This document shows, piece by piece, positions 33,357-64,000 of a stretch of 64,000 bases of DNA. The notes below the pieces were generated by a model. That model worked only from the letters and a program-made list of their open reading frames with translations, was not told the DNA's origin and ran no database searches. Source of the DNA: a virus; the IMG/VR virus record IMGVR_UViG_3300025070_000022, positions 25,941 to 89,940 of that record; one strand, given 5' to 3'. Every line of letters begins with the position of its first letter. Position 1 is the first letter of the stretch. Both the position numbers and the translations under genes were made by a program.

Positions 33357-33863
33357 TCAATCCCTTCCGTCAAATCTACTTTCTATTTTTTTATGAATGT
33401 TTTTAATTAAAGACTCAATGAATGAATTAGAGGTTTTTGAAAACACACTAATTGTACCGTTTTCTTTATTGTGAGAACCTGCATTGTATTCATAGACAGG
33501 ATAAACGCCTTGGTCTTCTGCTTTTAATCTGTATTCTTCGCCAAAATTATCAGCAATTTCATTTATTTCGTCTTCAAACCCTCTGTACCACAAATCATAC
33601 CAATCTACATCTAATGTTATTTGTATTTCTTCAAATGGTTTTGATATAAAGTCGTCATTATGACGGCCAACATTTGGGTTAAAACTCAATATGTAATTAG
33701 GAAAATAAATCATTCCATTGCTGAACTCAAAACCTTCAAGTCCTTCCTTTCTTTCTATTGTATCAACAAGTTCCCGATACAAACCATTCATAAATTCTAC
33801 TTTAGTGTGATAAGGAATGTGGGTTTTACCACCACTGTTATTTTTTAATATTTTTTTCCACAT
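33357..33863 (-). CDS. Tagged head/tail-joining protein (MWKKILK N-terminus)
   Basis: A 168-residue protein starting MWKKILKNNSGG, one of 17 late proteins with a W-x-x-I-L-K start. The body has IQITLDVDWYDLWYRGFEDEINEIADNFG and a C-terminal helix (SFIESLIKNIHKKIESRF). Between connector and tail terminator genes, it may be a head-closure or neck protein. The tag could direct it to the head. Confidence 0.55.
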   Translation of the reverse strand: MWKKILKNNSGGKTHIPYHTKVEFMNGLYRELVDTIERKEGLEGFEFSNGMIYFPNYILSFNPNVGRHNDDFISKPFEEIQITLDVDWYDLWYRGFEDEINEIADNFGEEYRLKAEDQGVYPVYEYNAGSHNKENGTISVFSKTSNSFIESLIKNIHKKIESRFDGRD

Positions 33864-33864
33864 A

Positions 33865-35169
33865 TCAATCCAACATATACACTAAGTCTTTCTTACCATC
33901 AATAAGAGCCATCCCTTCTGTACGAAGTAAATCGTACTTCTCCTTCGCTGATATGTTTGCTCCAGTTTCAGCAATCATTATTGTTTGGTCGTCATGTCGT
34001 AGAATTTCTGCCGCAACTAATTTAGTAGTGGCTTCGTGAACTGTAGAAGGTACTCTTCCATCACCAGCAACATAAGAAACAATGATTGAGTTCTTGTTAT
34101 GATAAGGATACTTCTTCAAAAAGAAAATTCTTCCATCGTCGCTCATCATCCAAAAGTCTCCTAAACGCTTCATATCTTCTTTGTCAGTAAAAGGTACAAT
34201 AGAACAGACTGTGGGGATTTCATTGGTAGTGGTAAAGGTTAGTGTACTTGAGGCAGAACCAGTAGCGGCTTTGGAAAGAGTGACGGTAGTTCCACTATCA
34301 ATAGAAGAAATAGTAGTAGAGGCAGGGATATTAGTTCCTGTGACTTCCATATCTACTGCTAATTTACTAGAATCGGCTACAGTCAAACTAGTGCTGGAGT
34401 TACTAGTAGTACAAGACTGTTGAATAGTAGCCTTTAGTGTGCAACCTGCTCCATCATCTCCCGATAATAAAGATGAAATTAAGACCTTAGTACCATCTTG
34501 GTCGTCTTTTTGTGAAAAGAAGAAATCCGAAATATTTAGATTACTAGTTTCTAATTCTTTTGAAGCAGTTGCTCCTGTAAATTGAGAGGTATTCGAGGGA
34601 AATTTCTCATTAATCAAATCAACAATTTCATTGTTAGTGGTCTTTATTCCGAAGGTAGTACAAAACTCATCGTTTGCTAGTGCGGAAACATCATTTTCTG
34701 CTAGTAATTCAAAAGAAACTCCACCGTTAGGTAGTTGGAAAATAATAGAGTGTATATCTCTAAAGTTGTCTAAGAGGGTAATGGACCCTTGAGCCGAGGC
34801 TAATTCTCGATAGTCATTACCTTCCCAAACTCTAAGGCTTACAATCTTTCTAATCTTCATCTGTTGTAGTTGTATAAAACCCACATATCCACCATAATAA
34901 GAAGCAATAGGACTCCTAGTAAATTCAAAATCTTTAAACTCATTCTTCCAAATAATGGGTCTAAAAGAACGGTTAATTTTTTCATCTACCATCCCTTCTA
35001 TTCTTTTAATAATGGAGCCGACTTGTGCGGCAGAAGGATTAGTACCGGAGGTGAAAGGAGTGACTTGTAGTAGGTCAGAAACTGCGGCTATATCTGTGTA
35101 GAAACCTTGTCCTGTAGCATAGTTTGGGTTAATTGAAGTATAGTCACTGGGGGAGGATGCTACTGGCAT
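33865..35169 (-). CDS. Head-tail connector/adaptor with inserted beta module
   Basis: A 434-residue protein. The N-terminus (FYTDIAAVSDLLQVTPFTSG, IIKRIEGMVDEKINRSFRPIIW) resembles gp6-like head-tail adaptors that bind beneath the portal, and the C-terminal helices (STVHEATTKLVAAEILRHDDQTIM) match too. An insert near the middle (LAVDMEVTGTNIPASTTISS followed by a strand-rich run) matches the module in the tail terminator-like protein. Long for an adaptor (usually 100-200), mostly because of insertions. Confidence 0.6.
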   Translation of the reverse strand: MPVASSPSDYTSINPNYATGQGFYTDIAAVSDLLQVTPFTSGTNPSAAQVGSIIKRIEGMVDEKINRSFRPIIWKNEFKDFEFTRSPIASYYGGYVGFIQLQQMKIRKIVSLRVWEGNDYRELASAQGSITLLDNFRDIHSIIFQLPNGGVSFELLAENDVSALANDEFCTTFGIKTTNNEIVDLINEKFPSNTSQFTGATASKELETSNLNISDFFFSQKDDQDGTKVLISSLLSGDDGAGCTLKATIQQSCTTSNSSTSLTVADSSKLAVDMEVTGTNIPASTTISSIDSGTTVTLSKAATGSASSTLTFTTTNEIPTVCSIVPFTDKEDMKRLGDFWMMSDDGRIFFLKKYPYHNKNSIIVSYVAGDGRVPSTVHEATTKLVAAEILRHDDQTIMIAETGANISAKEKYDLLRTEGMALIDGKKDLVYMLD

Positions 35170-38110: not shown

Positions 38111-38569
38111 TTAAAAATACTTTAGCATTTCTTCAAAATGTTCTTTTGCATTATCCCTAGTAGCACTTGTTGTACCATGAAGTCTATCCCCTTCTATTGT
38201 TTTACGCATAGATTCTATCACCTTTTCATCAGGAACTTTTTTCTTTGTAGCATCTTTAAAGTAATCTTCTCCTAATTCAAAGGTTGGCTCTATGCCTCTA
38301 CCCATGCCACCTTCCCCATATTCTTTATCAGCCAACAAATAATAGAATTTTTTACTAGGAATTGCTCGGAATACCTTTGGCTTTCCATCATCTCTAGGAG
38401 TACTCTCTTGTTCGCTACCAAAAAAAGCATATTCTACTGCTTCATCAAAATCAAATGTCCAATGCCTAGTTTCCCCTCTAATTTGAACTCCTTGAAAAAC
38501 CTCATCGTATGTATCAAGTTTAGTCCCGTCAAGTATATGGAAGGGCTTCTTTAGTATATCTTCCCACAT
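38111..38569 (-). CDS. Tagged late protein (MWEDILK N-terminus), toxin-like fold possible
   Basis: A 152-residue protein. ATG 38569 is preferred over TTG 38578 because it gives MWEDILKKPFH, matching the tag of neighbouring proteins. The body contains DEVFQGVQIRGETRHWTFDFDEAVEYAFFGS and a YLLADKEYGEGG segment, which loosely recalls small ADP-ribosyltransferase-like folds, but I cannot identify the catalytic triad. Possibly an injected effector; that is speculation. Confidence 0.5.
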   Translation of the reverse strand: MWEDILKKPFHILDGTKLDTYDEVFQGVQIRGETRHWTFDFDEAVEYAFFGSEQESTPRDDGKPKVFRAIPSKKFYYLLADKEYGEGGMGRGIEPTFELGEDYFKDATKKKVPDEKVIESMRKTIEGDRLHGTTSATRDNAKEHFEEMLKYF

Positions 38570-38587: not shown

Positions 38588-38992
38588 TCACATATATTCG
38601 GGAATATCCCATGAGCCATAAGTTGAATTTTTATTCCACATATTATCTGCTTCCCCGCTTTGTCCAATATCTCCAACAAAATCATAGTTTTGGTTGCTTA
38701 AAGCATAGGCAATCAAATGATATAGGTTTTCAGCATATCCTCTTCTCATAAATTCAGTTTTTGTACTAACATCTCTTGCTTGAAAAACATCATCGTCTAT
38801 TTTTTCGGCAAAGGCTCTTGTTAATTGAACTCCTTCTTTATCTACAATATTACCGTCTAAAGAATCTCCATGAATATTAACATTCATTTTTAATTTTTCT
38901 TTGCTTTTAGGGTCTAGGTATATAGCAGTCACACTATTCCCTCTAATAACTATATTAGAAATGGGATTTTGCTTTAGTATATCTTGCCACAT
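38588..38992 (-). CDS. Tagged late protein (MWQDILK N-terminus), acetyltransferase-like possible
   Basis: A 134-residue protein starting MWQDILKQNPISN. The body has strands (VIRGNSVTAIYLDPKSKEKLKM) and a segment MRRGYAENLYHLIAYALSNQNYDFVGDI that could be the acetyl-CoA-loop helix of a GNAT fold (R-x-G-Y-A-x-x-L). The assignment is weak. The tag and location suggest packaging into the head. Confidence 0.5.
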   Translation of the reverse strand: MWQDILKQNPISNIVIRGNSVTAIYLDPKSKEKLKMNVNIHGDSLDGNIVDKEGVQLTRAFAEKIDDDVFQARDVSTKTEFMRRGYAENLYHLIAYALSNQNYDFVGDIGQSGEADNMWNKNSTYGSWDIPEYM

Positions 38993-38996
38993 AATA

Positions 38997-39659
38997 TCAG
39001 TAATCCTTTATCATTGTAGTAACGCCCTTGTAGACCATTTCCGGCTGTGATTTAGCAGAAACAATGTACTTGTAAGTCGGTATTCCCTTGTCGTTTAACT
39101 GTTGCATCCCATATTTAAAAGGAGTGAAAATCGAATGGTTAGAAATATCTACATCTTCCTTGTATTTATCTCCCCAAATGTCATATTTGTTAGCCCAAAT
39201 ACCTACGGCTAGTGGGTAGTCAGTGTTTTTCTTCTTCTTACCATTTGGCCAAGAAGCACTACAAATAGCATCTACTAGAAATTTCCATGCTAATTGATGG
39301 TCTAGATTGGCAGTAGAGTCTAAATGTCTATGGTCTATTACAAAGATAACATACTTTACCTTTCTATTCTTCATATCTTGCATCCATTCTCTCCAATAGA
39401 TTGCTTCACCGCCCATGTCAGCAGTTTTCAAAGTATGAGTATCGCCGTCTAATTTTATTGTTTTTCGACTAGCCCTTTGTTTGCCAACAGTTCTTTCTCT
39501 TATTTCCGGAACTTCGCCTCTAGTTCTTAGTTGATGGTGCAAAGTAGTCTTACCTACCATAGTAGCACCATAGATTCCAAAGTTAATTGCATGTACTTTC
39601 TTGTAAAACGCTACTGTAGCCTCAATACAAACTACTGCGAAACCCGCTAATACAGACAA
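38997..39659 (-). CDS. Membrane-anchored Arf/SRbeta-like small GTPase
   Basis: A 220-residue P-loop GTPase. A hydrophobic N-terminal segment (residues 2-18) suggests a membrane anchor. G1 is GATMVGKT (31-38), a G2 candidate is T57, G3 is DMGGE (81-85) followed by the Arf-type W-x-x-W spacing, IFVID precedes the G4 NKYD (157-160), and G5 is SAK (201-203). The D-x-G-G G3 and N-terminal anchor recall Arf, SRbeta and MglA. TTG 39659 has GGTGAT 4 bases upstream; GTG 39668 is the alternative. It lies in an apparent set with two small membrane proteins upstream. GTP hydrolysis and a membrane or virion-assembly role are inferred. Confidence 0.75.
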   Translation of the reverse strand: MSVLAGFAVVCIEATVAFYKKVHAINFGIYGATMVGKTTLHHQLRTRGEVPEIRERTVGKQRASRKTIKLDGDTHTLKTADMGGEAIYWREWMQDMKNRKVKYVIFVIDHRHLDSTANLDHQLAWKFLVDAICSASWPNGKKKKNTDYPLAVGIWANKYDIWGDKYKEDVDISNHSIFTPFKYGMQQLNDKGIPTYKYIVSAKSQPEMVYKGVTTMIKDY

Positions 39660-39668
39660 AAAAATCAC

Positions 39669-40313: not shown

Positions 40314-40613
40314 TCAGTTGAATTCTACTGAAACATGTGCAGTAGAAGAACCGGCTTCTGTGACTTCTAAGAATATTCCTCCAGTGCATAACACACCATG
40401 CATGTCATATTCTAGATTATACTGTCCCGTAGTCGTATTGTGAATTCTAGCAATTTCTGTACCAGTATTATCTTGTCCATCAAATACTTTAATGGTCACT
40501 GCCGCATTGCTAGCAATAACAATGTTAGCGTGAATGCTTTTCAATCTACATTGAGTCTTAGAAATTATTGCGCTTGCCCCAAGGACTCCACTGCTTCTAC
40601 TCACATCGGACAT
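40314..40613 (-). CDS. Small beta-sandwich-like virion protein
   Basis: A 99-residue protein with alternating strands (CRLKSIHANIVIASNAAVTI; GGIFLEVTEAGSSTAHVSVEFN), typical of small jelly-roll or decoration proteins in phage heads. Located between the capsid genes and the membrane-protein set. Function by fold pattern and context. Confidence 0.5.
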   Translation of the reverse strand: MSDVSRSSGVLGASAIISKTQCRLKSIHANIVIASNAAVTIKVFDGQDNTGTEIARIHNTTTGQYNLEYDMHGVLCTGGIFLEVTEAGSSTAHVSVEFN

Positions 40614-41671: not shown

Positions 41672-43015
41672 TCAAGCCACATTGGTAATCTTGCCTTGTC
41701 CCTTGAAGAACGAACAACCAACTTCACCAATGGTTCGGTAAAGTGCTTGGTTGCCGAGTCGTCCCACACCGAATGGGTTTCCGTTAGAAACACCGTCTTC
41801 AAAGTATTGAGTCGGCTTAAGAACGGAGAGCCACATATGGTCAGTGTCCAAGAACAACAAGTCGCTAATCCCACTATCTGCGGCATTGAGAGTTGTAGTC
41901 ATATCCTTAACAGGAATCAATGGAATGTCGTAGTAGGTTGCCACACGGAAACCAACTTCTGCACCCTTAATTCCACGAATACCGTTATGGGTAGGAATAA
42001 CTTCCTTACGGTCCATGAATCGCTCTTGGCTTTGTAGCAAGTCAGCGATTGCTTGGATAGTATCGTATCCCGTAAGAATACACTTAGGGGAACCTCCGGA
42101 GATTCTCAAGTTGCGAATCATGTTGTTAAGCAAAGTAAGAGTTAGTGGTCGAACCGAAGATGCGGCGTAAGAACTGTTAAAGTCAACTTCTGCATCTAGG
42201 AAAGAAGCAGTATTTCGGTTATCTCCGTAGATTTTACCTAGATTGTTAGTAGCACTCAATGGGTCAGTGCATAGAACATTGCTGTCCATAGCCGCTAATT
42301 CAGCGTTACTTGTAACGACCTTCAAAAGCGAAGTATAGTTTCGCTCAATATCTCCAAGAGCCGCCGATTCACCGTAGACTTGTAGAGGCATGAGAAGCAT
42401 CTTGTTTTGTGCTTCTGCGTGTGCCTTACCCATGTCTTCACGGATAATAGCCCGAATATCTCCAAGTCCATCATCAATTTGAGCCATTTCCATTGCGAGT
42501 TCGGAAATATCGAACTGGTGTGCAATAGTCTTAGGACTCATAAAGAGTTGAGCGTAAGTTGGAGCCATAGAACCAAGTCCATCTGCCGCAGTAGAAAGGC
42601 CGGCGTTTTCTGGAACACCGCCAATTTGGTCAGCGTGTGGCTTACTACCACCAATTCCAATAACACCAGTGCCAGTAGTATCGCCAGTAATATCCACTTC
42701 TAGTCTAGGGTTAGAACCACCAAATGGTCGGCTCTTAAGAATTCTCCATCCGGAAGAAGCATAAGGTCGCTTTGCTAACATAGCAAGAGCATTTACTTCT
42801 CGGTTTAGCATAGACCAAACTTTTTGTCCGTATAGTTGGTTATACATTGCTGTTCCAGTAATACTGGATGTGCCGCTTGCCGCCGCATCACTAATGTCGT
42901 GTGCAGTGTGTAGTCCTTGAACTGCACCTGCTTGTTTCAACACGGAGTTTCCGCCAAAGGCAGGTAGTCCGTATGTCGCCGCTTCTAAATCTCTAATTGT
43001 GTTAATGTATCCCAT
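41672..43015 (-). CDS. Major capsid protein, HK97 fold
   Basis: A 447-residue protein between the prohead protease-scaffold and decoration-protein genes. Features expected of an HK97-type capsid are a helical N-arm (YINTIRDLEAATYGL), a spine helix region (SELAMEMAQIDDGLGDIRAIIREDMGKAHAEAQN) and A-domain strands (SPKCILTGYDTIQAIADLLQSQ; GAEVGFRVATYYDIPLIPVKDM), ending in a beta-rich segment. The N-terminal ~75 residues could be a removable delta domain or remain as N-arm. It forms the shell. Confidence 0.85.
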   Translation of the reverse strand: MGYINTIRDLEAATYGLPAFGGNSVLKQAGAVQGLHTAHDISDAAASGTSSITGTAMYNQLYGQKVWSMLNREVNALAMLAKRPYASSGWRILKSRPFGGSNPRLEVDITGDTTGTGVIGIGGSKPHADQIGGVPENAGLSTAADGLGSMAPTYAQLFMSPKTIAHQFDISELAMEMAQIDDGLGDIRAIIREDMGKAHAEAQNKMLLMPLQVYGESAALGDIERNYTSLLKVVTSNAELAAMDSNVLCTDPLSATNNLGKIYGDNRNTASFLDAEVDFNSSYAASSVRPLTLTLLNNMIRNLRISGGSPKCILTGYDTIQAIADLLQSQERFMDRKEVIPTHNGIRGIKGAEVGFRVATYYDIPLIPVKDMTTTLNAADSGISDLLFLDTDHMWLSVLKPTQYFEDGVSNGNPFGVGRLGNQALYRTIGEVGCSFFKGQGKITNVA

Positions 43016-43025: not shown

Positions 43026-44201
43026 TCAAATGTTACCGCCAACAGCCTTATGAATGTCGCTCCAACTCATGTCAGCAATCTCTTCTGTAGAGAAAACCTT
43101 AGTGGTTGTAGCGGCTTCTGTAGCCTTGCGGATTGTGTTCTTTTCTTCTGTAAGTGACTTACGGAGTTCGGAGAACTCTGCGTTAAGTCGTGCGATTTCG
43201 GATTGTGCATCATATTCTGCCTTAGCAACTAAGTCTGCTCGGTTAGTTTCTTCCGAAGCGAATCTCTTAGCGAAGGTTTCTTCGAGAGTTTCGAGTCCCA
43301 TCTTCTCAAGTTGTTCTGCTCGGTATTGCTCGTAAGCCTTCTCGATGTTTGAAGCACTTAGGTTAAGAGTGCGGAATTCTTCGTTAGCAAAGGTCTTACT
43401 AACCATTCCTTCTTTCTTTGCTTGCGCTCCAGCACTTGCCATAGGTTCACCGGCTCCACCAAGATTAGTTTCGTCGTTTCCATCAAGAGTAGTACCCTTG
43501 GCTTCCGGAGTTGACCCACCTTCTGCGTCTTCGGTATCCATGTATTCATCCATTTTCTCATTCAATGGGTGGCCGCCAGACATTTCCATTGATGGTTCTT
43601 CTTCTTCTTTTCGTAGCGTGTTGACTTCTTCTAGAAGAGTATCTAGTTCTGCCAATGCCTTTTCTAATTTGTTCATTGTTTTGTCCTCCTTTAATATATC
43701 GAACCTCGCTTCGGGGTTGATTCCTTTTTCGCATATTGTGACTTCGTGGAGTTCTAGTTTGCTTATCTCGCTATACTCCCCTAATTCATCGTGGTGTTTC
43801 TTCACTTTTTGTAGTGCTTGTCCACCTATGCTAAAAGACCTCAATGACCCCTTGCGAATTCCTCGGTTTATTTCCTTTGCTTTTTCAATATCATCTCTTA
43901 ATTTAATTACTACGAAGAACCCAACATCATCTACTTGGGTCTTCCATAGTTTTCCATTACTATCTCTATGAGATTCAACTACTTCTCCAACTTGAACATT
44001 GGAGTGATTAGTCATAACATTGCGGAACTTATTGTGTTCCATGAATTTTTTAACTGCCTCATTTAAGGCTTTGAGAGTAATTAAATCATTTTGCTTATCT
44101 ACCATTTCGATAGAAGCATAGCCTCCAATCATTAAATCATCATTCGACGCCTTCAAGATGGAGAAGTCATTCTCCTCCATTGCAGACATAATCGTAGACA
44201 T
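43026..44201 (-). CDS. Prohead protease fused to scaffold
   Basis: A 391-residue protein. The N-terminal ~170 residues are an HK97/herpes-type assembly protease: His66 in NVMTNHSN and Ser124 in GSLRSFSIGG, then ELHEVTICEKGINPEARF. The C-terminal half is acidic, Glu/Ala-rich and coiled coil (NKLEKALAELDTLLEEVNTL; RADLVAKAEYDAQSEIARLN), a typical scaffold. The last residues, IADMSWSDIHKAVGGNI, closely match the C-terminus of the protein at 47201 and resemble the N-terminal tag of many late proteins. ATG 44201 is chosen; a GTG at 44231 would add 10 residues. Confidence 0.88.
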   Translation of the reverse strand: MSTIMSAMEENDFSILKASNDDLMIGGYASIEMVDKQNDLITLKALNEAVKKFMEHNKFRNVMTNHSNVQVGEVVESHRDSNGKLWKTQVDDVGFFVVIKLRDDIEKAKEINRGIRKGSLRSFSIGGQALQKVKKHHDELGEYSEISKLELHEVTICEKGINPEARFDILKEDKTMNKLEKALAELDTLLEEVNTLRKEEEEPSMEMSGGHPLNEKMDEYMDTEDAEGGSTPEAKGTTLDGNDETNLGGAGEPMASAGAQAKKEGMVSKTFANEEFRTLNLSASNIEKAYEQYRAEQLEKMGLETLEETFAKRFASEETNRADLVAKAEYDAQSEIARLNAEFSELRKSLTEEKNTIRKATEAATTTKVFSTEEIADMSWSDIHKAVGGNI

Positions 44202-44238
44202 GATGCTCAAGCCGTCTTGTAGCAAATACACTATTTAA

Positions 44239-46731: not shown

Positions 46732-47199
46732 TCAGTAAAGATTAAGAGAGTCTGCCATATAAGTTTCCGATTGTAAAATAGCCTTAACACCCGCTTCTTC
46801 ACCCTTAGTCCAATGGCCGTCTTCGATTAGTTTAGGTAGTTTTTTCAATCTATTAATCATTCGAGTAAATTTTTCAACTCTTTTAGGGTCGTTATACTTG
46901 CCATATGAAAGTCTTTCTTGCTTAATTCCATCATTTAGCAGTTGGATAGTATTTTCTATGGTTATGTCGGACTTACCAAAAGTATCTCCAGCAAGACCAT
47001 ATCCGGAATGAGTACCTGTATTGTTCTCAATCTTAGTATCATCTTTTTCTGCCTTGGGTTCCTTGGTCTTAACTTCGGGGGCTTCTATTTCTAACGGTAG
47101 AGTTTCTCTACCCTCTTGTTGTAAGACTTCCTTTGCTTTACGAACCAATCTAATTGCTCTACTAATTTGTGCTTCCTCTTCTGTCATTTTTTCCGGCAT
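46732..47199 (-). CDS. Helical late protein, unknown
   Basis: A 155-residue protein. ATG 47199 is preferred over 47214 because GGGAGG is well placed. It is charged, with helices (EEEAQISRAIRLVRKAKEVL; EKFTRMINRLKKLPKLIEDG) and a linker in the middle rich in Lys, Glu, Pro and Thr. Between ligase and a small coiled-coil protein. Function unknown. Confidence 0.5.
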   Translation of the reverse strand: MPEKMTEEEAQISRAIRLVRKAKEVLQQEGRETLPLEIEAPEVKTKEPKAEKDDTKIENNTGTHSGYGLAGDTFGKSDITIENTIQLLNDGIKQERLSYGKYNDPKRVEKFTRMINRLKKLPKLIEDGHWTKGEEAGVKAILQSETYMADSLNLY

Positions 47200-47200
47200 A

Positions 47201-47428
47201 TCAGTTCCTCCCATTTACGAACTTTTCAATATCATTCCAACTCATCTTATGGATAGCATCAGCATCCGGTACAGATTGATTTGACATAGATGGAGTAGGG
47301 CTATCGACAACAACAAAGCCCGACTTCATAAGCAAGTTATCTTTGTTGTAGACTGCTTGTTCTAGAGTCTTAATTCTACCAACCAATTCCTTTAGAATAA
47401 TCAGCATGTCTTCATTACTTTCACTCAT
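47201..47428 (-). CDS. Small coiled-coil protein with scaffold-like C-terminal peptide
   Basis: A 75-residue protein. The first 30 residues form a coiled coil (EDMLIILKELVGRIKTLEQA); a flexible linker follows; the last 18 residues, AIHKMSWNDIEKFVNGRN, align with the scaffold end EIADMSWSDIHKAVGGNI. This suggests a mini-scaffold or adaptor that binds the same capsid or portal site. Overlaps the next gene upstream by 8 bases. Confidence 0.6.
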   Translation of the reverse strand: MSESNEDMLIILKELVGRIKTLEQAVYNKDNLLMKSGFVVVDSPTPSMSNQSVPDADAIHKMSWNDIEKFVNGRN

Positions 47429-47774
47429 CTCTCAAGTCCCCCTTTCTCTTAGGATAGACGACTTCTCGTAGTTGACGATACAAGACTTCGTACTCCTTAC
47501 GAAGTTTGCTAGATAGGGCCACCATATCAATGTTCCTTTCGTCAATACCGTCGAACTTCTTTTTCATCTTATCATCGGATTTGACCAAATCTAATTCTCT
47601 TAGCATGTCAATGAGTTCACCCATTCGAGTGAAATCTTGGCCAAAGTATTCGGTTGGTTCTGCCGATTGTAGAGTCTTCTTCAATCGCTTTCTCTTCTTT
47701 TCATCTAGTGATTCCAAAATTGGACTGTTTTCTTTTTCTATCATATCGGGTTGTTTTAGTATTCTTTCCCACAT
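47421..47774 (-). CDS. Tagged helical late protein (MWERILK N-terminus)
   Basis: A 117-residue protein starting MWERILKQPDMIEKEN, followed by helices rich in Lys/Glu (LDEKKRKRLKKTLQSAEPTEY; NIDMVALSSKLRKEYEVLYRQL). Start overlaps the preceding stop by one base. No family recognised. The N-terminal tag places it with the proposed head-targeted proteins. Confidence 0.55.
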   Translation of the reverse strand: MWERILKQPDMIEKENSPILESLDEKKRKRLKKTLQSAEPTEYFGQDFTRMGELIDMLRELDLVKSDDKMKKKFDGIDERNIDMVALSSKLRKEYEVLYRQLREVVYPKRKGDLRDE

Positions 47775-49689: not shown

Positions 49690-49914
49690 TCACCACTTGT
49701 TTTCTGTTCTTCTTCTTTTCTTAGCCGGTAGTTGGACTACATCGGGAGTATCTGCACTACTTCTAGTAGGGCGATGAGTAGTATCGGGCGGTAGTCCTCC
49801 TACAGAATAGTCTCTAGATTTCTTAGTAGTTCTATCTTCTGCGGCTCGTTGAGAACGGACCTGTGCCAATTCTTTAGCCAATCTTCTTTCTTTTTGTGCT
49901 GTGTCTTCTGTCAT
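49690..49914 (-). CDS. Small basic protein after portal, unknown
   Basis: A 74-residue Arg/Lys/Thr-rich protein (KERRLAKELAQVRSQRAAED; LPAKKRRRTENKW). The N-terminal half is helical; the rest is likely disordered. Start overlaps the portal stop by one base. Could bind DNA in the head. No family recognised. Confidence 0.5.
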   Translation of the reverse strand: MTEDTAQKERRLAKELAQVRSQRAAEDRTTKKSRDYSVGGLPPDTTHRPTRSSADTPDVVQLPAKKRRRTENKW

Positions 49915-51557
49915 TATGGTATTCTCCTTTCTGTTCTTGAATCCACATTTTGATTACCTGCGTCTGCTGGCAATCCGGTCATTCGCTTATCGGGGCCTAC
50001 GCTCATGGATGGTTTATTTCTTGTGGTAGCGGGATTCTCTTGAGGCTTACCTCTTCCTTCTAACATTTCTCTATTCATCTCATTAATATCTCTTTGGTCA
50101 AAGTTAGACCCTGCTAAACCATCCATACCGGATTGTGCTTTGTTTTCTTGTCCTTCTTGGGGAGGCTCCTCTTTAGGCTCCGGCTTATTGAAGGTAAAGT
50201 TTCCATCCTCATCCATCTCTACTTCAAATCCTAAGTTCTTAACAGAAGCCGCAATGTTGACTTCTAATTCCCTTCGTCTAAGTTCAGCAATTTCATCTTC
50301 TTCTTCCGAAGGAGGTAGTTTCAAATCCCAATCAGTAATTCCAAATTGCTTTGTTAAGAACGGGAAGACATAATTATTGTAGACATTTTGTGCCATTTGA
50401 ACAGCACGATTAGTGACTAATATTTGCATACCTTCGTTGTTAAGTCCACCGCTAGTAGTGTTGTCAGCCATGAAGACTTTACTAACCCCGTAGAAAGCAG
50501 AAATTCTATCTCTCAAATCATCCTTAACAGAAACATATTCCATTTCTTTAAGACTATCCATGAACTTAATCCATTCAACTGAACCCTTGCCATTGTCGGC
50601 TTCGATTCCCATAACTGGAATATAGTGGGGGTCTTGTTCCATTCTTTCTTTTACACTTCTCCAAAAACTAGCCATAGAGTCCATGTTTCTAGTCTGTACT
50701 GCTAGTAACCCTCTAGGCATTCTGCTCTTGGTATAGGAAGAATTGACATAATTTTCCATTGCTATTAAAGTCATTATATGATTGAATAGAGTCATAACTG
50801 GAGAATGGCCATATAGCCTACTTGGGCTGTATTTACTAAAATGTAGGACTTCACCTTTAATGTAGTACTGCTCATCTCCATTTGCTCTATTGACATAATG
50901 TATAGGGTGTAAATTACTGCCACATTCACCACAAGGTTCGTGTGGCTCCTGTGCAATAAAATTTCTATGATTTATACAAGTGAATCCCTTAGTTCCTCTA
51001 ACTCCAAGTTCATCAGCGTAAATTGCCATAGTAACAGGGTCGCCTCTGAACAACTCTTTGATTCTATGCATACGAATTTTACCATTACCATCTAAGTAAT
51101 ATTCCTTGACAAGAACAATGTAAGCATCATCCATAATGTTTAGGTCGTCTTCTAATTCTTTAAGAACATCAATGAATAACTGTTCGGATTGATTGATGTA
51201 TCCCTCAATAAACTTCTCGGCATATTCTAATTGTTTTGGGTCAGGTTTAGATAATTCCAAGGAACCACATCTAGCACATTCACTAACTGGTCTTTTGTGG
51301 GTCTTTTGACAAGAGTTACATCGGGCTTCGTAAGCCTTCTCCCAAACATATCCTCTTCGGAAAATTTCTTGTTTTAGTTGAGTAATACAAGTACGAACAA
51401 TCACAGACTGTTGGGTGACATTGTAGACCATTGGGGCTGTCATCATGTAAGAGTTCTCACGCTCTTGTATTCCGATGTTGTAGACCTGCCTATCCGCCGG
51501 TTTGGGAGTAGACCTTCTAAACAGTCCACTTATTCCGAATCTTCGCTTTTCTGCCAT
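49914..51557 (-). CDS. Portal protein with two zinc-ribbon insertions
   Basis: A 547-residue protein located between terminase-side genes and the capsid genes. Portal-like parts are the wing region (YNVTQQSVIVRTCITQLKQEIFRRGY), the stem segments (RLYGHSPVMTLFNHIMTLIAMENYV) and the crown-side helix (NNEGMQILVTNRAVQMAQNVYNNYVFPFL). Two Cys clusters are unusual: Cys80, 83, 94, 97, and Cys194, His197, Cys209, Cys212, each able to bind zinc. The C-terminal 100 residues are Pro/Gln/Asn-rich and likely disordered. Confidence 0.8.
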   Translation of the reverse strand: MAEKRRFGISGLFRRSTPKPADRQVYNIGIQERENSYMMTAPMVYNVTQQSVIVRTCITQLKQEIFRRGYVWEKAYEARCNSCQKTHKRPVSECARCGSLELSKPDPKQLEYAEKFIEGYINQSEQLFIDVLKELEDDLNIMDDAYIVLVKEYYLDGNGKIRMHRIKELFRGDPVTMAIYADELGVRGTKGFTCINHRNFIAQEPHEPCGECGSNLHPIHYVNRANGDEQYYIKGEVLHFSKYSPSRLYGHSPVMTLFNHIMTLIAMENYVNSSYTKSRMPRGLLAVQTRNMDSMASFWRSVKERMEQDPHYIPVMGIEADNGKGSVEWIKFMDSLKEMEYVSVKDDLRDRISAFYGVSKVFMADNTTSGGLNNEGMQILVTNRAVQMAQNVYNNYVFPFLTKQFGITDWDLKLPPSEEEDEIAELRRRELEVNIAASVKNLGFEVEMDEDGNFTFNKPEPKEEPPQEGQENKAQSGMDGLAGSNFDQRDINEMNREMLEGRGKPQENPATTRNKPSMSVGPDKRMTGLPADAGNQNVDSRTERRIP

Positions 51558-51615: not shown

Positions 51616-51975
51616 TCAAGAACCCTTACGCCACTTCTTGTTTTTCTTTTCTTTGGTTTTACTAGGACTCCACTTTACCTTGTCAGCCCAATAAGCGGCA
51701 GACATTTTACCCCGCTTAATGTTCTTCTTATGTCGTGATTTGAATGCCTTTCTTTGCCCTGCGGTTTGATTGGTCTTAACGCCCTTTTGTCCAAATTTAA
51801 TATATTTGTACTTTCCACCTTCGGAAGCCATAACATGATGTGACTTGCCAGAATTGTCATTTAGCCTTTGTGGAGAATTAAAAGACCTCAATCCCTTAGC
51901 CTTCATTCTTTTACGGGCCGCTTCTCTTGGTCCGGATTTAGGTTTTCTCTTCAACAAAATATCTTCCCAACTCAT
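51616..51975 (-). CDS. Tagged very basic protein (MSWEDIL N-terminus)
   Basis: A 119-residue protein starting MSWEDILLKRKPKSGP. It is extremely Lys/Arg-rich and ends with KSRHKKNIKRGKMSAAYWAD followed by KVKW, a pattern I have seen in small basic proteins of T7-like and other marine phages (KAR-x-x-KNI-x-x-GKMSAAYWAxKxKW). A DNA-associated internal virion role is plausible. Confidence 0.6.
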   Translation of the reverse strand: MSWEDILLKRKPKSGPREAARKRMKAKGLRSFNSPQRLNDNSGKSHHVMASEGGKYKYIKFGQKGVKTNQTAGQRKAFKSRHKKNIKRGKMSAAYWADKVKWSPSKTKEKKNKKWRKGS

Positions 51976-51984: not shown

Positions 51985-52302
51985 TCACAAAAACGAATAA
52001 CGGGTTTCTGTTTTAATCCCCATTAATTTACCATCAACAACAATTCTTTGTTTTTCTTTTTTAGTTTCTAACAGGTTTCTGTTCTTCAAATATTTTATGA
52101 TGTAATTATGTATCCTATCTGATTTAATACTTTTATGTAGTTTAGAATACCTGCTTCTTACATCTTCTATGAATATATCAAATTCCTTTATGTTTAGGGA
52201 TTGCCCTTTTAATAGTCGGGCTTCTTGAATAATAATCTTGTTTAGAAAGTCGTAGTCAATTTTCCTTACCCTCCCCCGTTTAATTACTTTTTCCCAACTC
52301 AT
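51985..52302 (-). CDS. Tagged protein (MSWEKVIK), winged-helix-like
   Basis: A 105-residue basic protein starting MSWEKVIKRGRVRK. The remainder is helical (YDFLNKIIIQEARLLKGQSL; RSRYSKLHKSIKSDRIHNYI) and ends with two strands (KQRIVVDGKLMGIKTETRYSFL), compatible with a winged-helix DNA-binding domain. Unknown function; member of the tagged set. Confidence 0.5.
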   Translation of the reverse strand: MSWEKVIKRGRVRKIDYDFLNKIIIQEARLLKGQSLNIKEFDIFIEDVRSRYSKLHKSIKSDRIHNYIIKYLKNRNLLETKKEKQRIVVDGKLMGIKTETRYSFL

Positions 52303-52700
52303 TCTTCTCCCCTCAATTGGTTTTCTTTAGAAGTCTTATCATCATCAATTGGGCCACCTTTAGCCCAAGTGTAGCAGGTTCTAGCCGAATGGCATTTGAA
52401 ATCGTGCATCCAACAGTAGCCTAAGCGACCATCTTTATCTGTAGAAAGTGGCATACATTCATCCATTCTTGGAGATATGTCAAATGCAATACAGTTACTA
52501 CAATTAGATTTCTTAGCAACATCAGCAGTAGTATTCCATTTCTTAGCATACTCCTCCCAATACTTTTCGTCGTTTAGATTAAGAGGCCCGTATTGAATAT
52601 GTTTTTCTTTTACTGCCCTGTCCCTATTCTTAGTATTGAGTTTCAAATCTTGGGTAGCCAAGGGGCATTCTAGTTTCTTTAATATAATTGTCCAATCCAT
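52299..52700 (-). CDS. Tagged Cys-rich protein (MDWTIILK)
   Basis: A 133-residue protein starting MDWTIILKKLECPL. Cys are concentrated in NCSNCIAFDISPRMDECMPL and GYCWMHDFKCHSARTCYTW, which suggests one or two metal sites or an Fe-S cluster. Overlaps its downstream neighbour by four bases. Function unknown. Confidence 0.55.
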   Translation of the reverse strand: MDWTIILKKLECPLATQDLKLNTKNRDRAVKEKHIQYGPLNLNDEKYWEEYAKKWNTTADVAKKSNCSNCIAFDISPRMDECMPLSTDKDGRLGYCWMHDFKCHSARTCYTWAKGGPIDDDKTSKENQLRGEE

Positions 52701-52704: not shown

Positions 52705-52911
52705 TCACTTCGGGCTTAGTCCATACTTTCTAACCACATTTCTCAACGCAATTCTTTTCTTAGTTTCATTATCCCTTCCACTAAGGTACGGATTATTATA
52801 TTCTTTTTTGTATTCCTCAATATGCTCAGGTGAGAAGTGATAGGTCTTACCATCTATAGTAAATCTTTGACCGATTGCTCTTATTGTTTTTATAACCTCT
52901 TGCCAACTCAT
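52705..52911 (-). CDS. Tagged small protein (MSWQEVIK)
   Basis: A 68-residue basic protein starting MSWQEVIKTIRAIGQ, then a beta hairpin (RFTIDGKTYHFSPEHI) and a helical, basic end (NETKKRIALRNVVRKYGLSPK). Overlaps the upstream gene by four bases. No family recognised. Confidence 0.5.
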   Translation of the reverse strand: MSWQEVIKTIRAIGQRFTIDGKTYHFSPEHIEEYKKEYNNPYLSGRDNETKKRIALRNVVRKYGLSPK

Positions 52912-53300
52912 GCTGTAAATGGCCCCCTTCTTTTACTAGTTGGCTCATGTGTGTAAAAATCTCCATCTTTGTGAAGAAACAACTTACCTTCCTTTATTAG
53001 TTCAGATAGGGCTTTATCTAAATCCTTTTGACTAGCAATATGCTTCAAATCTTTCATGGCTAAAGCACCTCCTTGTTTGGTCTTGGCAGAAAGGATTTTT
53101 TTCTTAATACCCTTCATTGTATTTTTTGCTTTTTTATTTAACAAATCAAAATCTTCACGGTTGATTTTGCCATCTTTATTTCTATCCAAGTGCTTACTTT
53201 GTTTAGGTGTTAATTTCTTATTTACACATTCTTCACAGTTGCATGGCTTACCCATCTTTTCTGTTCCGCAGTGCCTCTTTAGTATATCTTTCCAAGCCAT
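52908..53300 (-). CDS. Tagged protein (MAWKDILK) with Cys cluster and EF-hand-like loop
   Basis: A 130-residue protein. After the tag come Cys11, 20, 22 and 25 (CGTEKMGKPCNCEEC), suited to one metal ion. Residues 39-50 are DRNKDGKINRED, an EF-hand calcium loop with D1, N3, D5, G6, I8 and an acidic residue at position 12, flanked by helices. The C-terminal half is a helix-rich, winged-helix-like region (MKDLKHIASQKDLDKALSEL, then a strand pair GKLFLHKDGDFYTHE). Calcium binding is inferred. Confidence 0.6.
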   Translation of the reverse strand: MAWKDILKRHCGTEKMGKPCNCEECVNKKLTPKQSKHLDRNKDGKINREDFDLLNKKAKNTMKGIKKKILSAKTKQGGALAMKDLKHIASQKDLDKALSELIKEGKLFLHKDGDFYTHEPTSKRRGPFTA

Positions 53301-53301: not shown

Positions 53302-53565
53302 TTATCTACCTTCTACTTTTTTGTAGGCTTTCTTTCCAGCCTTTGTTCTAGGAACATGTTGTTTCCCCTTTCTAGTACCGGCTCTTTTCTTAGCACTCTC
53401 TCGCCTTTTTTGTTCGGGAGTAAGGGAATCTCTTACAGATTTAGGACCATACCTTCCACCTTCTGTAGTAAGGTTGTCCCAATCTTCCTTGTTCCACTCA
53501 ACCATGTCTTTCTGCGCTTCTGTTAAAGCCTTCAAAACATCTTTCCAACTACTTCTTGTTGACAA
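53302..53565 (-). CDS. Tagged basic protein (STRSSWKDVLK)
   Basis: An 87-residue protein. TTG 53565 is preferred because GGTGG is spaced before it, giving MSTRSSWKDVLKALTEAQ, in which the tag starts at residue 6 instead of 2. The C-terminal half is very basic (KRRESAKKRAGTRKGKQHVP, then KKAYKKVEGR), consistent with DNA binding. Overlaps the upstream gene by 17 bases. Confidence 0.55.
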   Translation of the reverse strand: MSTRSSWKDVLKALTEAQKDMVEWNKEDWDNLTTEGGRYGPKSVRDSLTPEQKRRESAKKRAGTRKGKQHVPRTKAGKKAYKKVEGR

Positions 53566-53785
53566 AGCCACCACCTGCCTTTTGGTAAAGTCTATTCAAC
53601 TCTTGAGATTTTCTAGCAGACCATTTGTATTTTCCAGTACCGTGAGTGTTCTTGGCCCACAATCTCCTATGTATTCTCTCTCTAAGTTTAGGATTAGTAT
53701 AAGTTCCTTTAGGAGCCTTGTAAGTATGCTTAGGAACCTTCCTTTTGCTCCTACTATTTTTCTTGAGAATCTCTTGCCATGTCAC
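53549..53785 (-). CDS. Tagged basic protein (MTWQEILK) with SARK motif
   Basis: A 78-residue protein starting MTWQEILKKNSRSKRK. The rest includes PKLRERIHRRLWAKNTHGTG and KYKWSARKSQELNRLYQKAG, ending GGFVNKK. The W-S-A-R-K-x-Q-x-L-x-x-x-Y-x-x-x-GGG segment recurs in small phage virion-associated proteins in my knowledge. Very basic, possibly packaged with DNA. Confidence 0.6.
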   Translation of the reverse strand: MTWQEILKKNSRSKRKVPKHTYKAPKGTYTNPKLRERIHRRLWAKNTHGTGKYKWSARKSQELNRLYQKAGGGFVNKK

Positions 53786-56952: not shown

Positions 56953-57279
56953 CTATTCTTGTTCTTTTATGAAATCGACCTTTCTTTTAAAAGCCTGATA
57001 AAAATTCGACAAAGCCAGTCTAATATCAAAAATATCATCGTATGGCCAATCGTCCATATAATCTTCCATCTTGGCAATTTGCCTACTGATAAAAAATATG
57101 ATGTCTTCTTCGTAGTTTTCTCCTTCAAGTACTCTTTTAATATCAGATAACCTACCGGCAAACGACTCCCAATGACCGCCATATTGATTATGTCCTTGTC
57201 GGATTTTGTTTTCTAAATCCTCGTATCTTTCTAATAGGGTTTCTGTAGTTTCAAACTTTAATATTCCTTTCCAACTCAT
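56953..57279 (-). CDS. Tagged protein (MSWKGILK), helical
   Basis: A 108-residue protein. ATG 57279 has GGTGAT upstream and starts MSWKGILKFETTE; a GTG at 57288 is unlikely. It is entirely helical (LERYEDLENKIRQGHNQYGG; DIIFFISRQIAKMEDYMDDW). The piece QYGGHWESFAGRLSDIK is loosely similar to EYGGRWRNILEKIKE in the N-terminal extension of the DNA ligase. Lies directly upstream of TerL. Confidence 0.55.
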   Translation of the reverse strand: MSWKGILKFETTETLLERYEDLENKIRQGHNQYGGHWESFAGRLSDIKRVLEGENYEEDIIFFISRQIAKMEDYMDDWPYDDIFDIRLALSNFYQAFKRKVDFIKEQE

Positions 57280-61594: not shown

Positions 61595-61643
61595 ATTGTT
61601 TCCCCGAATAAAGGCAATAGTCCACTCTATAATAAATGAACTG

Positions 61644-61805
61644 TCAATCTAACTTTGTCTGCTGTGTTGCAGTATCTTCCTTCGGTGGCGGAGTTTCCTT
61701 GGGTTCATTTCCCCATTCTTCTGCTGGAATTGTAGATACGGTAGCACCTTCTGTAAGTTTTTTGGGGAGTTTGGTTTGTCTTTTGAGAACACTTTTCCAA
61801 CTCAT
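61644..61805 (-). CDS. Tagged small protein (MSWKSVLK)
   Basis: A 53-residue protein starting MSWKSVLKRQTKLPKK, the rest low complexity and rich in Thr, Pro, Glu and Gln (GNEPKETPPPKEDTATQQTK). GGAGAGATT precedes the ATG. With such a short, apparently disordered body, the tag itself may be the main functional part. Confidence 0.55.
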   Translation of the reverse strand: MSWKSVLKRQTKLPKKLTEGATVSTIPAEEWGNEPKETPPPKEDTATQQTKLD

Positions 61806-61816
61806 TGTAATCTCTC

Positions 61817-62134
61817 CTACATCAATCTCTTTGCTTCAATCAAATACATATACTGTTTTCTTAATCCCATCTTTGAAGTAACGGCCCCTGCTAGTTTCTT
61901 TAAATTCTTTTGAAAACTGAAAAATTCGGGAGAGTAAAGGTCATTTAACTCATCTTTATCTTCAACCCTTTCGTAGTATTCATCAAATTTATTCAATAGG
62001 GCCTCACCCGCTTGCTTTATTTTGGGGTCTTCATTGTAGGCCATAAAGAAAAGTAATTCGTGAACATGGCCATGTAAAGGGGCATCTCCATCTTCAACAT
62101 ACCAAGTATTTTTTAGTATATTCTCCCAACTCAT
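61817..62134 (-). CDS. Tagged helical protein (MSWENILK)
   Basis: A 105-residue protein starting MSWENILKNTWYVEDGD, then helices (HVHELLFFMAYNEDPKIKQA; LLNKFDEYYERVEDKDELND) and a C-terminal basic helix. GGAGAG precedes the ATG. Overlaps the small terminase candidate by four bases. Function unknown. Confidence 0.55.
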   Translation of the reverse strand: MSWENILKNTWYVEDGDAPLHGHVHELLFFMAYNEDPKIKQAGEALLNKFDEYYERVEDKDELNDLYSPEFFSFQKNLKKLAGAVTSKMGLRKQYMYLIEAKRLM

Positions 62135-62784
62135 TGTAATCTCTCCTGCATCTTTTTCTTAATGTCAAGCCAAATTTCCGGATTGTTCTGTGCTAACACT
62201 TCTTGAACAACTTGCATCTGTGCGACAATAATTGTATCTTGTCGCTTGTGGACAAGTTTGCCTTTGAACTCCATCATGTATTTTAAAGACTCACGAACTT
62301 CTCTAGCCAACTTCACTAGAGCGTCTAATTCCTTAGCATCTAAATCATCTCTAGATGCTATCTCGGTGATTTTATCATCGAGCAATTGAATGTTATTTGA
62401 TAGCATATCGACCTCATTCAAATCTTTCTTGGCAATAATAGCCGCCGCAGACTTTTGAACAACGGGCTGTAAATGGTGCTTAACATGTCGATGGACTTGG
62501 GCCTTAGAAATTCCAAGGCCTACGCTGACCTCCTCGGCTGTGATTAGACCCTCATGCAATTGCCTTTCGTATTCTGCCCTCATTGGGTCTACACAAATGG
62601 CACACTTTGGATTACTACTTTGCACATATTCTCCCATGTGATTTCTTTGATGCTGTGCAGAAGTACCGCTTCTCCAGTTCATCTTTTCATCTAATTCATC
62701 GGGAGTAATAGTAAGAGATTCTAAGTCGGCTTCCATAGAATCAACATCACTGTGTTGACAAAAGGCACAACTCTTTCTTCTCAT
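62131..62784 (-). CDS. Putative small terminase subunit (zinc/HTH)
   Basis: A 217-residue protein. The N-terminus SCAFCQHSDVD and KCAICVDPMRAEYERQLHEG give two Cys pairs, and HTH-like segments are followed by His motifs (HQRNHMGEY; VHRHVKHHL). This doubled 'CxxC ... HxxxH with HTH' layout resembles small terminases or related DNA-binding proteins of actinophages. A C-terminal helix bundle (NNIQLLDDKITEIASRDDLD) would allow oligomerisation. The location near TerL supports DNA recognition for packaging. Confidence 0.6.
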   Translation of the reverse strand: MRRKSCAFCQHSDVDSMEADLESLTITPDELDEKMNWRSGTSAQHQRNHMGEYVQSSNPKCAICVDPMRAEYERQLHEGLITAEEVSVGLGISKAQVHRHVKHHLQPVVQKSAAAIIAKKDLNEVDMLSNNIQLLDDKITEIASRDDLDAKELDALVKLAREVRESLKYMMEFKGKLVHKRQDTIIVAQMQVVQEVLAQNNPEIWLDIKKKMQERLQ

Positions 62785-63026
62785 TTCTGCACACCCGTAC
62801 TAATGATTTCAAATTCTTCTGTCTTATTACCAAGCATCTCTAATGAAACATAGATAGGTAGGTCGAAGCCAATGATAGGACGAGAGGAAGAATCGTAAAT
62901 CATCTTAGTCTTCACTGCGAACTTCTTTTCAATCATTTTAATCAGTTCGTCTAAACTTCCCGTCTTTCCAACGATTTCCTCTATTTCATCTAGAGTCATT
63001 TCTTTTAGTATGTTTTCCCAAGTCAT
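62781..63026 (-). CDS. Tagged protein (MTWENILK)
   Basis: An 81-residue protein. ATG 63026 lies after GGTGA and starts MTWENILKEMTLDE; an upstream in-frame ATG at 63062 would hide the tag inside. Followed by a helix (EEIVGKTGSLDELIKMIEKK) and strands (VKTKMIYDSSSRPIIGFDLP). Function unknown. Confidence 0.55.
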   Translation of the reverse strand: MTWENILKEMTLDEIEEIVGKTGSLDELIKMIEKKFAVKTKMIYDSSSRPIIGFDLPIYVSLEMLGNKTEEFEIISTGVQK

Positions 63027-63036
63027 ATTATTCACC

Positions 63037-63456
63037 CTATATCCCAAATTTTCCTTGAACATTAGGGTTGCCTTTTGAGGCTTGAATCATATCACCCATT
63101 CTTTCAACTTTGAAGCCAAATTGTTCTAATACAGGAATACCATGTTGTTGCACAAAATTAGCATCACCAAATAGGTCTTGTTGCATTTCCCATATTAACG
63201 CTCTATTACCGCTTCCTTTTCTTCCCCTACCTGTAAAATTTTCAGGAACTACCTTAATGGCAAATTTCCCATTTTTTTGAAATTCGGGGTCTTTTTTATA
63301 CGCACTAATTATTTCTGCCATATGTTTTTTTACATTTTCAATCTTCATTTTTTGATTATCAGTAAGTTTAGGTTCAGCAGAAGTCTTGTTTCTTCTAAAC
63401 CTACCAAACGGTGCTTTCTCTATTCCGTCTTGTTTTAGTATATCTTTCCAAGTCAT
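63037..63456 (-). CDS. Tagged protein (MTWKDILK)
   Basis: A 139-residue protein starting MTWKDILKQDGIEKAPFGRF. It is basic with a middle helix (NQKMKIENVKKHMAEIISAY) and a FTGRGRKGSGNRALIWEMQ segment. Start overlaps the preceding stop by four bases. No family recognised. Confidence 0.55.
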   Translation of the reverse strand: MTWKDILKQDGIEKAPFGRFRRNKTSAEPKLTDNQKMKIENVKKHMAEIISAYKKDPEFQKNGKFAIKVVPENFTGRGRKGSGNRALIWEMQQDLFGDANFVQQHGIPVLEQFGFKVERMGDMIQASKGNPNVQGKFGI

Positions 63457-63836
63457 TCTTTCACTTCCCTATTAAAAATAATTTCAAACTCTTTTTCTCT
63501 TCTATCTGTTCCTTTCAGTTCCATGACTCTAGCAGTGTAATTGAATAGATTAGGATAGTTGTAAATCTCAGCACCTCCTATGGGAAATCTGTTTTTACTC
63601 GACAACTCTATTGAGATAGCAAGGTGAACTTTATTCGGTCTTTTACCCGTTGTTAAGAACCATTCTGCTAAAGACTTGTTTGGCGTATCCTCATTAAAAA
63701 CATCATCATTATCATAATACATAGTTGATAGTTTGCCCCTGCCTTTCACTATCTCCATGACTCTATTCTCTACTTCTTTTTTATCTAAGTAGTCGTAGTT
63801 TATTGTATCGCTTTTCAATATGTTTTTCCAAGTCAT
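63453..63836 (-). CDS. Tagged protein (MTWKNILK)
   Basis: A 127-residue protein. ATG 63836 is preferred because it gives the tag at the extreme N-terminus (MTWKNILKSDTINYDY) and follows GGAAGGAAG; TTG 63854 would add six residues. The body is alpha/beta (LAEWFLTTGKRPNKVHLAIS; YTARVMELKGTDRREKEFEI). Function unknown. Confidence 0.55.
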   Translation of the reverse strand: MTWKNILKSDTINYDYLDKKEVENRVMEIVKGRGKLSTMYYDNDDVFNEDTPNKSLAEWFLTTGKRPNKVHLAISIELSSKNRFPIGGAEIYNYPNLFNYTARVMELKGTDRREKEFEIIFNREVKE

Positions 63837-64000
63837 AGTAGCACTTCCTTCCAACTTTTAATAACCGGACTAACCTTTACGCTCATGTTCGACTTCATGT
63901 AATCTTTAATCAATTTACGAGTCTTAGCCGGAGTCAACTCGATTGTGAATTCAGTAATGGTCCCTCCTAAGTCGGGAACTTTCATGTATCTAGATAGCAT
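63833..64000 (-). CDS. C-terminal part of a late protein ending SWKEVLL (partial)
   Basis: An open frame enters from the right edge; its 55 visible residues end VIKSWKEVLL, and the stop overlaps the next ATG (ATGA). The ending resembles the shared SW-x-x-[IV]-L tag, but at the C-terminus, as in the scaffold. It also encodes the ribosome-binding site of the following gene, so coincidence is possible. An ATG is in phase at 64000, so the true start is unknown. Confidence 0.45.
   Translation of the reverse strand: MLSRYMKVPDLGGTITEFTIELTPAKTRKLIKDYMKSNMSVKVSPVIKSWKEVLL

Follow-up and report, generated by a model that had tools for sequence, protein, structure and literature searches.

A Short N-Terminal Tag on Late Proteins of a Magrovirus-Like Genome as a Probable Head-Loading Signal

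Introduction

The closest working parallel to the element described here is the capsid targeting sequence (CTS) of bacteriophage T4, known from the internal proteins IPI, IPII and IPIII (PMC3012670). In phage P1, the N-terminal 30 residues of DarB send a reporter to the capsid, and the same study reports no consensus among the N-termini of the Dar proteins (PMC9024508). In herpesviruses, UL26/UL26.5 encodes a protease with a nested scaffold, the C-terminus of which binds the coat (PMC12474303), and in phage P22 residues 271–300 of the 303-residue scaffold form a coat-binding helix-loop-helix, with the loss of 11 C-terminal residues abolishing binding (PMC9965877); the loading of cargo into P22 by scaffold fusion is engineered (PMC9962691). 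In this report, we focus on a short N-terminal peptide, M-[S/T/N]-W-x-x-[I/V]-[L/I]-K (hereafter the tag), carried by late proteins encoded in the window, i.e., the whole stretch of 64,000 nucleotides analysed, which comprises positions 25941–89940 of the 89,940-base virus record IMGVR_UViG_3300025070_000022 (IMG/VR). What is new here is that the predicted prohead protease/scaffold open reading frame (ORF) and a 75-aa ORF of the head module end in a very similar motif, and we consider it probable that the tag is a head-loading signal, namely a version of a docking motif on the C-termini of the predicted scaffold and the small head-module protein.

Our best reading is that the tag would work like the T4 CTS, by analogy rather than by demonstrated kinship. 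As in T4, a short N-terminal peptide is common to otherwise unrelated proteins, which is confirmed here, and the carriers are late proteins, as judged by the gene content of their strand. The T4 starts MKTYQEFIAEA and MKTFKEFTST (AF158101) have, by eye, the aromatic-x-x-hydrophobic-hydrophobic spacing of the tag, beyond which there is no sequence in common. The systems differ in that three T4 proteins were compared, as against 13–21 late ORFs per genome here (by the loosest pattern), that a similar motif also ends the scaffold here, and that no conserved residue was seen after the tag as a cleavage site. The strong consensus of the tag also sets it apart from the Dar N-termini, for which the P1 study cited above gives none.

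By its gene set, the record appears to fit a magrovirus, a member of the order Magrovirales, which infects marine Poseidoniales, and the minus strand of the window encodes an S78 prohead protease, a terminase, a portal protein and a DNA ligase domain, the terminase and portal being close to the Pfam cut-offs. According to the ICTV profile, the replication and morphogenesis genes of magroviruses form two clusters of opposite transcription, and the Druskaviridae are distant relatives of the group (PMC10768690). The tag was not found by its spellings in the open-licence literature; nothing on it was found in the titles or abstract openings of those open-licence papers on targeting or internal proteins of archaeal viruses that were listed, and the main text of a magrovirus survey (PMC10160649) contains neither "N-terminal" nor "internal protein".

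The N-Terminal Tag and Its Restriction to Late Genes

A first-pass annotation, made from the letters of the window, had listed 17 late genes with tagged starts, all of which are present in the DNA, 15 beginning with ATG, the one at 53785 with GTG and the one at 53565 with TTG. A purine-rich stretch precedes most of these starts, and is not clear at 33863 and 52911. The tagged ORFs are as follows:

33357..33863, (-), MWKKILK
38111..38569, (-), MWEDILK; family aligned (see below)
38588..38992, (-), MWQDILK
47421..47774, (-), MWERILK; directly upstream of the 75-aa ORF
51616..51975, (-), MSWEDILL (variant); body is phrog_7595, common to roseophages and cyanophages
51985..52302, (-), MSWEKVIK
52299..52700, (-), MDWTIILK; Cys-rich body
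52705..52911, (-), MSWQEVIK
52908..53300, (-), MAWKDILK; dockerin/EF-hand-like stretch below the Pfam cut-off
53302..53565, (-), (M)STRSSWKDVLK; TTG start, uncertain because Trp is residue 6
53549..53785, (-), (M)TWQEILK; GTG start
56953..57279, (-), MSWKGILK
61644..61805, (-), MSWKSVLK
61817..62134, (-), MSWENILK
62781..63026, (-), MTWENILK; body similar to payloads at the C-termini of p160 relatives
63037..63456, (-), MTWKDILK; absent from the record's other end
63453..63836, (-), MTWKNILK; absent from the record's other end

The count of 17 is an undercount for the record, since the window covers only positions 25941–89940: the first 5.5 kb of the record hold nine further tagged or near-tagged ORFs (MGWKDILK, MWQDILK, MSWKDTLT, MSWENILK, MTWKNILK, MSWKDELR, MTWKDELK, MTWKDILK and MTWEDIIV), three of which are near variants, such as MTWKDELK.

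Frequencies were determined in nine genomes of 81–93 kb, namely this record and eight relatives, judged near-complete by length only, in which "late" and "early" denote the strand with more and less coding, respectively, as assigned by gene content. Tag counts in these genomes are lower bounds, as the greedy ORF calls miss some basic genes (e.g., 52908–53300). The strict tag, defined as W..[IV]L[KR] no more than 3 residues from the start codon, begins 107 of the 634 ORFs on the late strand and none of the 561 on the early strand (Fisher p 4.6e-32, which is only indicative, as the genomes are related and hence not independent). A loose pattern begins 137 late ORFs, two of them doubtful (LWISMIN, IWISMIN), and one early ORF (G005 33431–33895, MDWKEVMK), and the loosest pattern 152 late and three early ORFs, with 13–21 late ORFs per genome. 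Equal frequency at the start of early genes, named in the first-pass annotation as grounds for refuting its reading, is not seen, the motif being almost absent from early-strand ORFs. In 80 relative loci plus the window, the strict tag occurs 134 times at N-termini and 41 times elsewhere, as compared with 0 and 20 for the reversed motif, 4 and 131 with Leu in place of Trp, 6 and 78 with Phe, and 5 and 13 with Tyr. On the DNA level, a pattern for W-x-x-[IV]-L-K is present in 18 of 18 related records, mostly on one strand, the backward control giving 0–3 matches per strand.

A DNA pattern for MSWKDILK, the one spelling scanned, matches 74 stretches of viral_contigs. Proteins are shared with the nine genomes by 69 of these, and three short ones (L175, L201 and L220) carry further tags; the remaining two (L159 and L174) have no relatives among the nine genomes, and the match lies, by coordinates, inside one longer, unrelated frame. 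None of 36 HCTV-1 proteins chosen from the late half of that genome showed the tag at its start. Because of these starts and the near-confinement of the scanned spelling, the tag appears, as far as searched, to be a feature of this virus group and not of archaeal tailed viruses generally.

All fetched loci together yield 285 distinct tagged proteins, which fall into 131 BLAST clusters at E 1e-5 (88 singletons, and at least one cluster spurious, L049:15011–15166). The claim that the proteins are unrelated behind the tag is therefore borne out, full-length homology being absent at the BLAST level. In the cluster representatives, the residues and their counts are [S 44, M 28, T 24, N 18]-W-[K 48, E 34, Q 21, F 11]-[D 52, N 30]-[I 112]-[L 101, I 30]-[K 129]; as the search expression fixed W and limited three positions, the unforced signal consists of the S/T/N, K/E/Q and D/N preferences and of the predominance of Lys (129) over Arg (2). 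At the residue after the tag Lys, the information content has dropped to 0.43 bits, and further on to about 0.1, and no conserved residue was seen downstream of the tag in the 131 representatives. All six Leu codons and three Ile codons are used. Since conservation ends at the tag Lys and every Leu codon occurs, selection acts on the peptide. In the family of the tagged ORF 38111..38569, the M, W, I, L and K of the tag are invariant, while the bodies are 29–37% identical to the window's, save for one 90% pair. Among 221 relatives found by their bodies alone, 205 are tagged, four are cut and 12 are without the tag, these 12 comprising ten near variants (e.g., MSWKNTLK and MWKDELK), one ORF at a contig edge and one spurious ORF family. 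The spacing of W, I(+3) and L(+4) would suit a short amphipathic helix, and two structure models of tagged families have a helix at residues 2–5 and 2–6, with pLDDT 40–50 there. A very basic charge, suggested earlier as a hallmark of these proteins, is not one: pI exceeds 9 in 34% of the 131 representatives, 29% of 497 untagged late ORFs and 24% of 561 early ORFs.

A Similar Motif at the C-Termini of Head-Module Proteins

The features of the head module that bear on the tag are the following:

43026..44231, (-), prohead protease with a C-terminal half read as scaffold; Peptidase_S78 at residues 30–183, E 2.3e-10
43047..43070, (-), C-terminal tag-like motif of the protease/scaffold, MSWSDIHK
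43026..43676, (-), nested frame, predicted separate scaffold of 216 aa; ATG at 43676, aggagg at 43690–43685
47201..47428, (-), small head-module ORF of 75 aa; by eye, coiled-coil-like
47222..47245, (-), C-terminal tag-like motif of the 75-aa ORF, MSWNDIEK
41672..43015, (-), major capsid protein, to which the motif may bind; SU10_MCP just below the cut-off
49914..51557, (-), portal protein, the other candidate receptor; Phage_portal at 38.8 bits, as compared with a cut-off of 39.1

The protease ORF 43026–44231 adjoins the capsid gene 41672–43015, and its variable, helical-looking C-terminal half is presumably the scaffold. It ends ...EEIADMSWSDIHKAVGGNI, and in an alignment of 66 sequences, the most distant at 51% identity, this tail has an invariant Trp (66/66), with Met at 97%, Asp at 91% and Ile at 82%, the mean conservation over residues 196–385 being 63%. 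The 75-aa ORF, which has no Pfam match, ends ...IHKMSWNDIEKFVNGRN. The expression M[STNDEGA]W.[DENS][IVLM].[KRHN] matches 16 times in the 191,619 positions past the first 45 residues of the proteins of the nine genomes, at nine protease C-termini (9/9 genomes), six 75-aa ORF C-termini (6/9) and one position elsewhere. A position-specific scoring matrix (PSSM) built from the N-terminal tags only ranks the tails of G000, G005 and G006 at 11–15 of 192,757 positions, and the G006 protease at 39.

The resemblance extends to further C-termini. Some other late proteins end in a tag that lacks the Met (VKSWVELLRV, TSKWMEVLKWN and KKSWFKVLKERT), and one late protein has the tag at both ends, starting MTWKNIIK and ending MDWKGILKE. 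Tag-like scores occur at 21 of 6,498 late C-terminal, 31 of 117,987 mid-protein and one of 5,538 early C-terminal positions, and the late C-terminal excess persists (7.4-fold, p 2e-5) when the protease, the 75-aa ORF and repeated orthologues are left out. C-terminal and mid-protein matches number 13 and 20 for the tag, 1 and 4 for the reversed motif, 8 and 92 with Phe and 3 and 27 with Tyr; some C-terminal tag matches are spurious or cut, the MWLEVIK ORF overlapping the capsid gene and L035 being a truncated capsid gene.

Several points on this motif count against the head-loading reading. The expression above was written after the motifs had been seen, and the PSSM ranks the tails at 11–15 in the window's lineage but poorly in other lineages, down to 446th for the protease and 6458th for the 75-aa ORF, those of G008 and G009 standing at 446th and below. 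The scaffold motif has His, Glu or Asn at the Leu position of the tag, the 75-aa ORF ends MSF... and not MSW... in G008 and G009, and the tail is equalled in conservation by another stretch of the scaffold half, near residue 203, which reaches 94%.

An internal Met is found in 61 of the 66 protease relatives, the other five not matching the expression used. A Shine-Dalgarno-like stretch precedes it in 47 of the 61, as compared with 168 of 758 when all internal ATGs, with these among them, are counted. In the remaining 14 the sequence is GGAAGTGA, which likewise precedes the starts at 40613 and 63456. The conserved nested start with its Shine-Dalgarno-like stretch (43674–43690) suggests that the scaffold half is probably also made alone. 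This arrangement recalls herpesviruses and P22, in that a protease domain is followed by a presumed scaffold half beside the capsid gene and the C-terminal tail is conserved (Trp 66/66), with coat binding predicted by analogy; the nested start for the scaffold alone has its counterpart in herpesviruses and is here a sequence signal only. It differs in that the docking motif would be shared with many cargo proteins, a sharing not described in the passages cited for those systems.

Capsid protein matches in the phage collection come from 11 archaeal tailed virus records, the best being HCTV-1 (Druskaviridae) at 25% identity. Two tag-like stretches of the protease ORF, "DFSILK" at its N-terminus and "FDILKQ" within it, were considered and dropped, as they lie at the margins of the conserved protease domain, and membership of its fold is the simpler explanation. 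The 828-aa ORF 44239–46725 was rejected as a scaffold candidate, since it carries an ATP-dependent DNA ligase domain.

Turnover of the Tagged Bodies and a Possible Second Carrier

Among ORFs of at least 60 aa (129 loosely tagged late, 447 untagged late and 483 early), the mean number of other genomes, out of eight, that hold a BLAST relative is 1.3 for tagged late, 5.0 for untagged late and 4.1 for early ORFs, and 52%, 24% and 25%, respectively, have no relatives there. The difference persists at 60–250 aa (1.4 for tagged versus 4.3 for untagged late), and the tagged genes thus appear to turn over fast while the tag stays. The ends of the record overlap at 98% identity (window 62870–64000 and L002 1–440) and differ by about 0.7 kb, the stretch with the tagged genes 63037–63836 missing from the left copy, which looks like gain or loss of a cassette within the population.

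Some bodies have relatives in other phages. That of 51616–51975 has relatives in 44 phage records, with the alignment beginning at residue 12 or later among the 30 listed; that of 52299–52700 has relatives in six, aligned from residue 12 or later in all six, and a third (53302–53574) matches two phages from residue 13 onward. Five outside relatives, from four phage records, are without the tag: one each in roseophage CRP-13, vibriophage D274 and phage DSL-LC01, and two in ctYwJ313. In the DSL-LC01 relative the body is fused behind another domain, and its start, MAETDWLSKL, has a Trp and not the tag.

A further late ORF may be a second cargo carrier:

46732..47214, (-), p160, with a conserved N-terminal half and a variable C-terminal payload

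Relatives of p160 carry 38 distinct C-terminal payloads in 23 clusters, and three payload families also occur behind the tag, in the window at 62781–63026, in an L197 ORF (MDWKDTIK) and at L084:12821–13060 (best E 1.8e-7, 2.9e-7 and 8.8e-6); a fourth match, L102 to L056 (E 1.2e-4), is to a loosely defined ORF. Against the untagged ORFs of the nine genomes, the payloads match p160 and one late ORF in its neighbourhood in G009.

Probable Head Loading and Alternative Explanations

The favoured explanation builds on what can be read in the sequences themselves, i.e., the tag, its late-strand restriction, the modularity of its carriers, the similar motif on two head-module C-termini and the nested start signal; helical docking, the coat or portal as receptor, encapsidation, delivery and any role of the cargo are inferred. 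During assembly, the scaffold tail would dock via the motif on the inner face of the coat or on the portal, and tagged late proteins, using the same docking site, would end up inside the prohead. One groove of coat or portal would receive both the scaffold tail and the cargo tag, and the cargo would remain after the scaffold exits. Because the bodies change quickly while the tag stays, the tag would be an address for plugging in new genes, and the cargo would travel in the virion and could reach the next host. The interpretation in the first-pass annotation is in part supported: its core, that the tag targets a set of cargo proteins to the head, gains support from the motif ending the protease/scaffold and a second head-module ORF, from the fast turnover and from the untagged outside relatives. 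We lean, if only slightly, towards a broader view, an open cargo-loading code in an order of archaeal tailed viruses, in which one motif, with a similar form on the scaffold tail and on a second head protein, addresses 13–27 quickly exchanged late proteins per virus into the head for the next host, the tag acts from either end of a protein, and p160 also takes up cargo domains. If true, this would link cargo loading to the docking motif of the scaffold and provide a short loading tag of natural origin.

The motif might dock elsewhere than on the head shell or portal, on a virus-encoded chaperonin, a host protein or a membrane, as its short amphipathic pattern and a chaperonin-like gene in the record (recognised by eye) would allow; the late-strand restriction and the similar motifs on two head-module proteins point to head assembly instead, and we regard such a dock as unlikely. 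We think it quite unlikely that the motif serves chiefly in recognition or cleavage by the prohead protease, as a propeptide that is cut from scaffold and internal proteins in maturation. Its position on the protease's own tail and beside the prohead protease gene would agree with this, and the N-terminal CTS propeptides of T4 measure 10–20 residues (PMC5694885), but no residue is conserved after the tag (<0.45 bits from the next position on), and some tags lie a few residues from the C-terminus, where a cut would free almost nothing. The removal of the tag by the prohead protease, for which T4 had been cited as precedent, accordingly finds no support, although a cleavage signal would be compatible with docking.

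Descent of the tagged proteins from one duplicated ancestor, the tag being the last recognisable relic, is given some room by the many small, helical-looking members without matches, in which remote kinship could be hidden. With 131 BLAST clusters, at least three bodies whose relatives in unrelated phages align only downstream of the tag, and information that drops to background directly after it, such an origin is very improbable. That a DNA- or RNA-level element at gene starts (a repeat, a regulatory site or a translation enhancer) codes for the peptide by chance is hardly credible: the tag does lie where genes begin, and by a loose expression 108 of 131 representatives have a purine-rich upstream stretch, but the varied Leu and Ile codons, the similar motifs at C-termini and the lack of the tag on early-strand ORFs are at odds with it.

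Candidate Functions and Minor Observations

The effector or DNA-condensing roles put forward earlier for the tagged proteins are hypothetical. In searches with 100 of the 131 representatives, nine PHROG and three Pfam families (all pentapeptide repeats) were matched at E 0.001, each in one protein; that very few bodies match either collection counts against the head-loading interpretation, as does the failure of the model of a family with a HELSH motif (pLDDT 71) to match any PDB entry at E 0.001 or better. This tagged family (L010:6659–7198 and relatives) is metallopeptidase-like by motif only, with sub-threshold matches alone in Pfam. An ADP-ribosyltransferase-like identity for the 38114–38569 family was a guess without support, its structure model (pLDDT 47) being left unused; a GNAT-like tagged protein (L130:8914–9438) reached only E 0.0056, below the cut-off, and a ParB-like guess for L025:5764–6168 was not confirmed. 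The Cys-rich body of 52299–52700 is annotated as "high potential iron-sulfur protein" in other phages, once beside a capsid maturation protease.

The large ORF with the ATP-dependent DNA ligase domain, 44239–46725 (-) (E 1.1e-27), is located within the head module next to the protease, and the structural gene cluster also holds a small GTPase-like ORF (38997–39668, (-); SRPRB and Ras-like, below the Pfam cut-offs). In genome_contigs, the virus protease has relatives at four loci (L148–L151) of metagenome-assembled genomes labelled Maricaulis (three loci) and Thioglobus, neither of them a Poseidoniales genome; these are probably mis-binned virus contigs.

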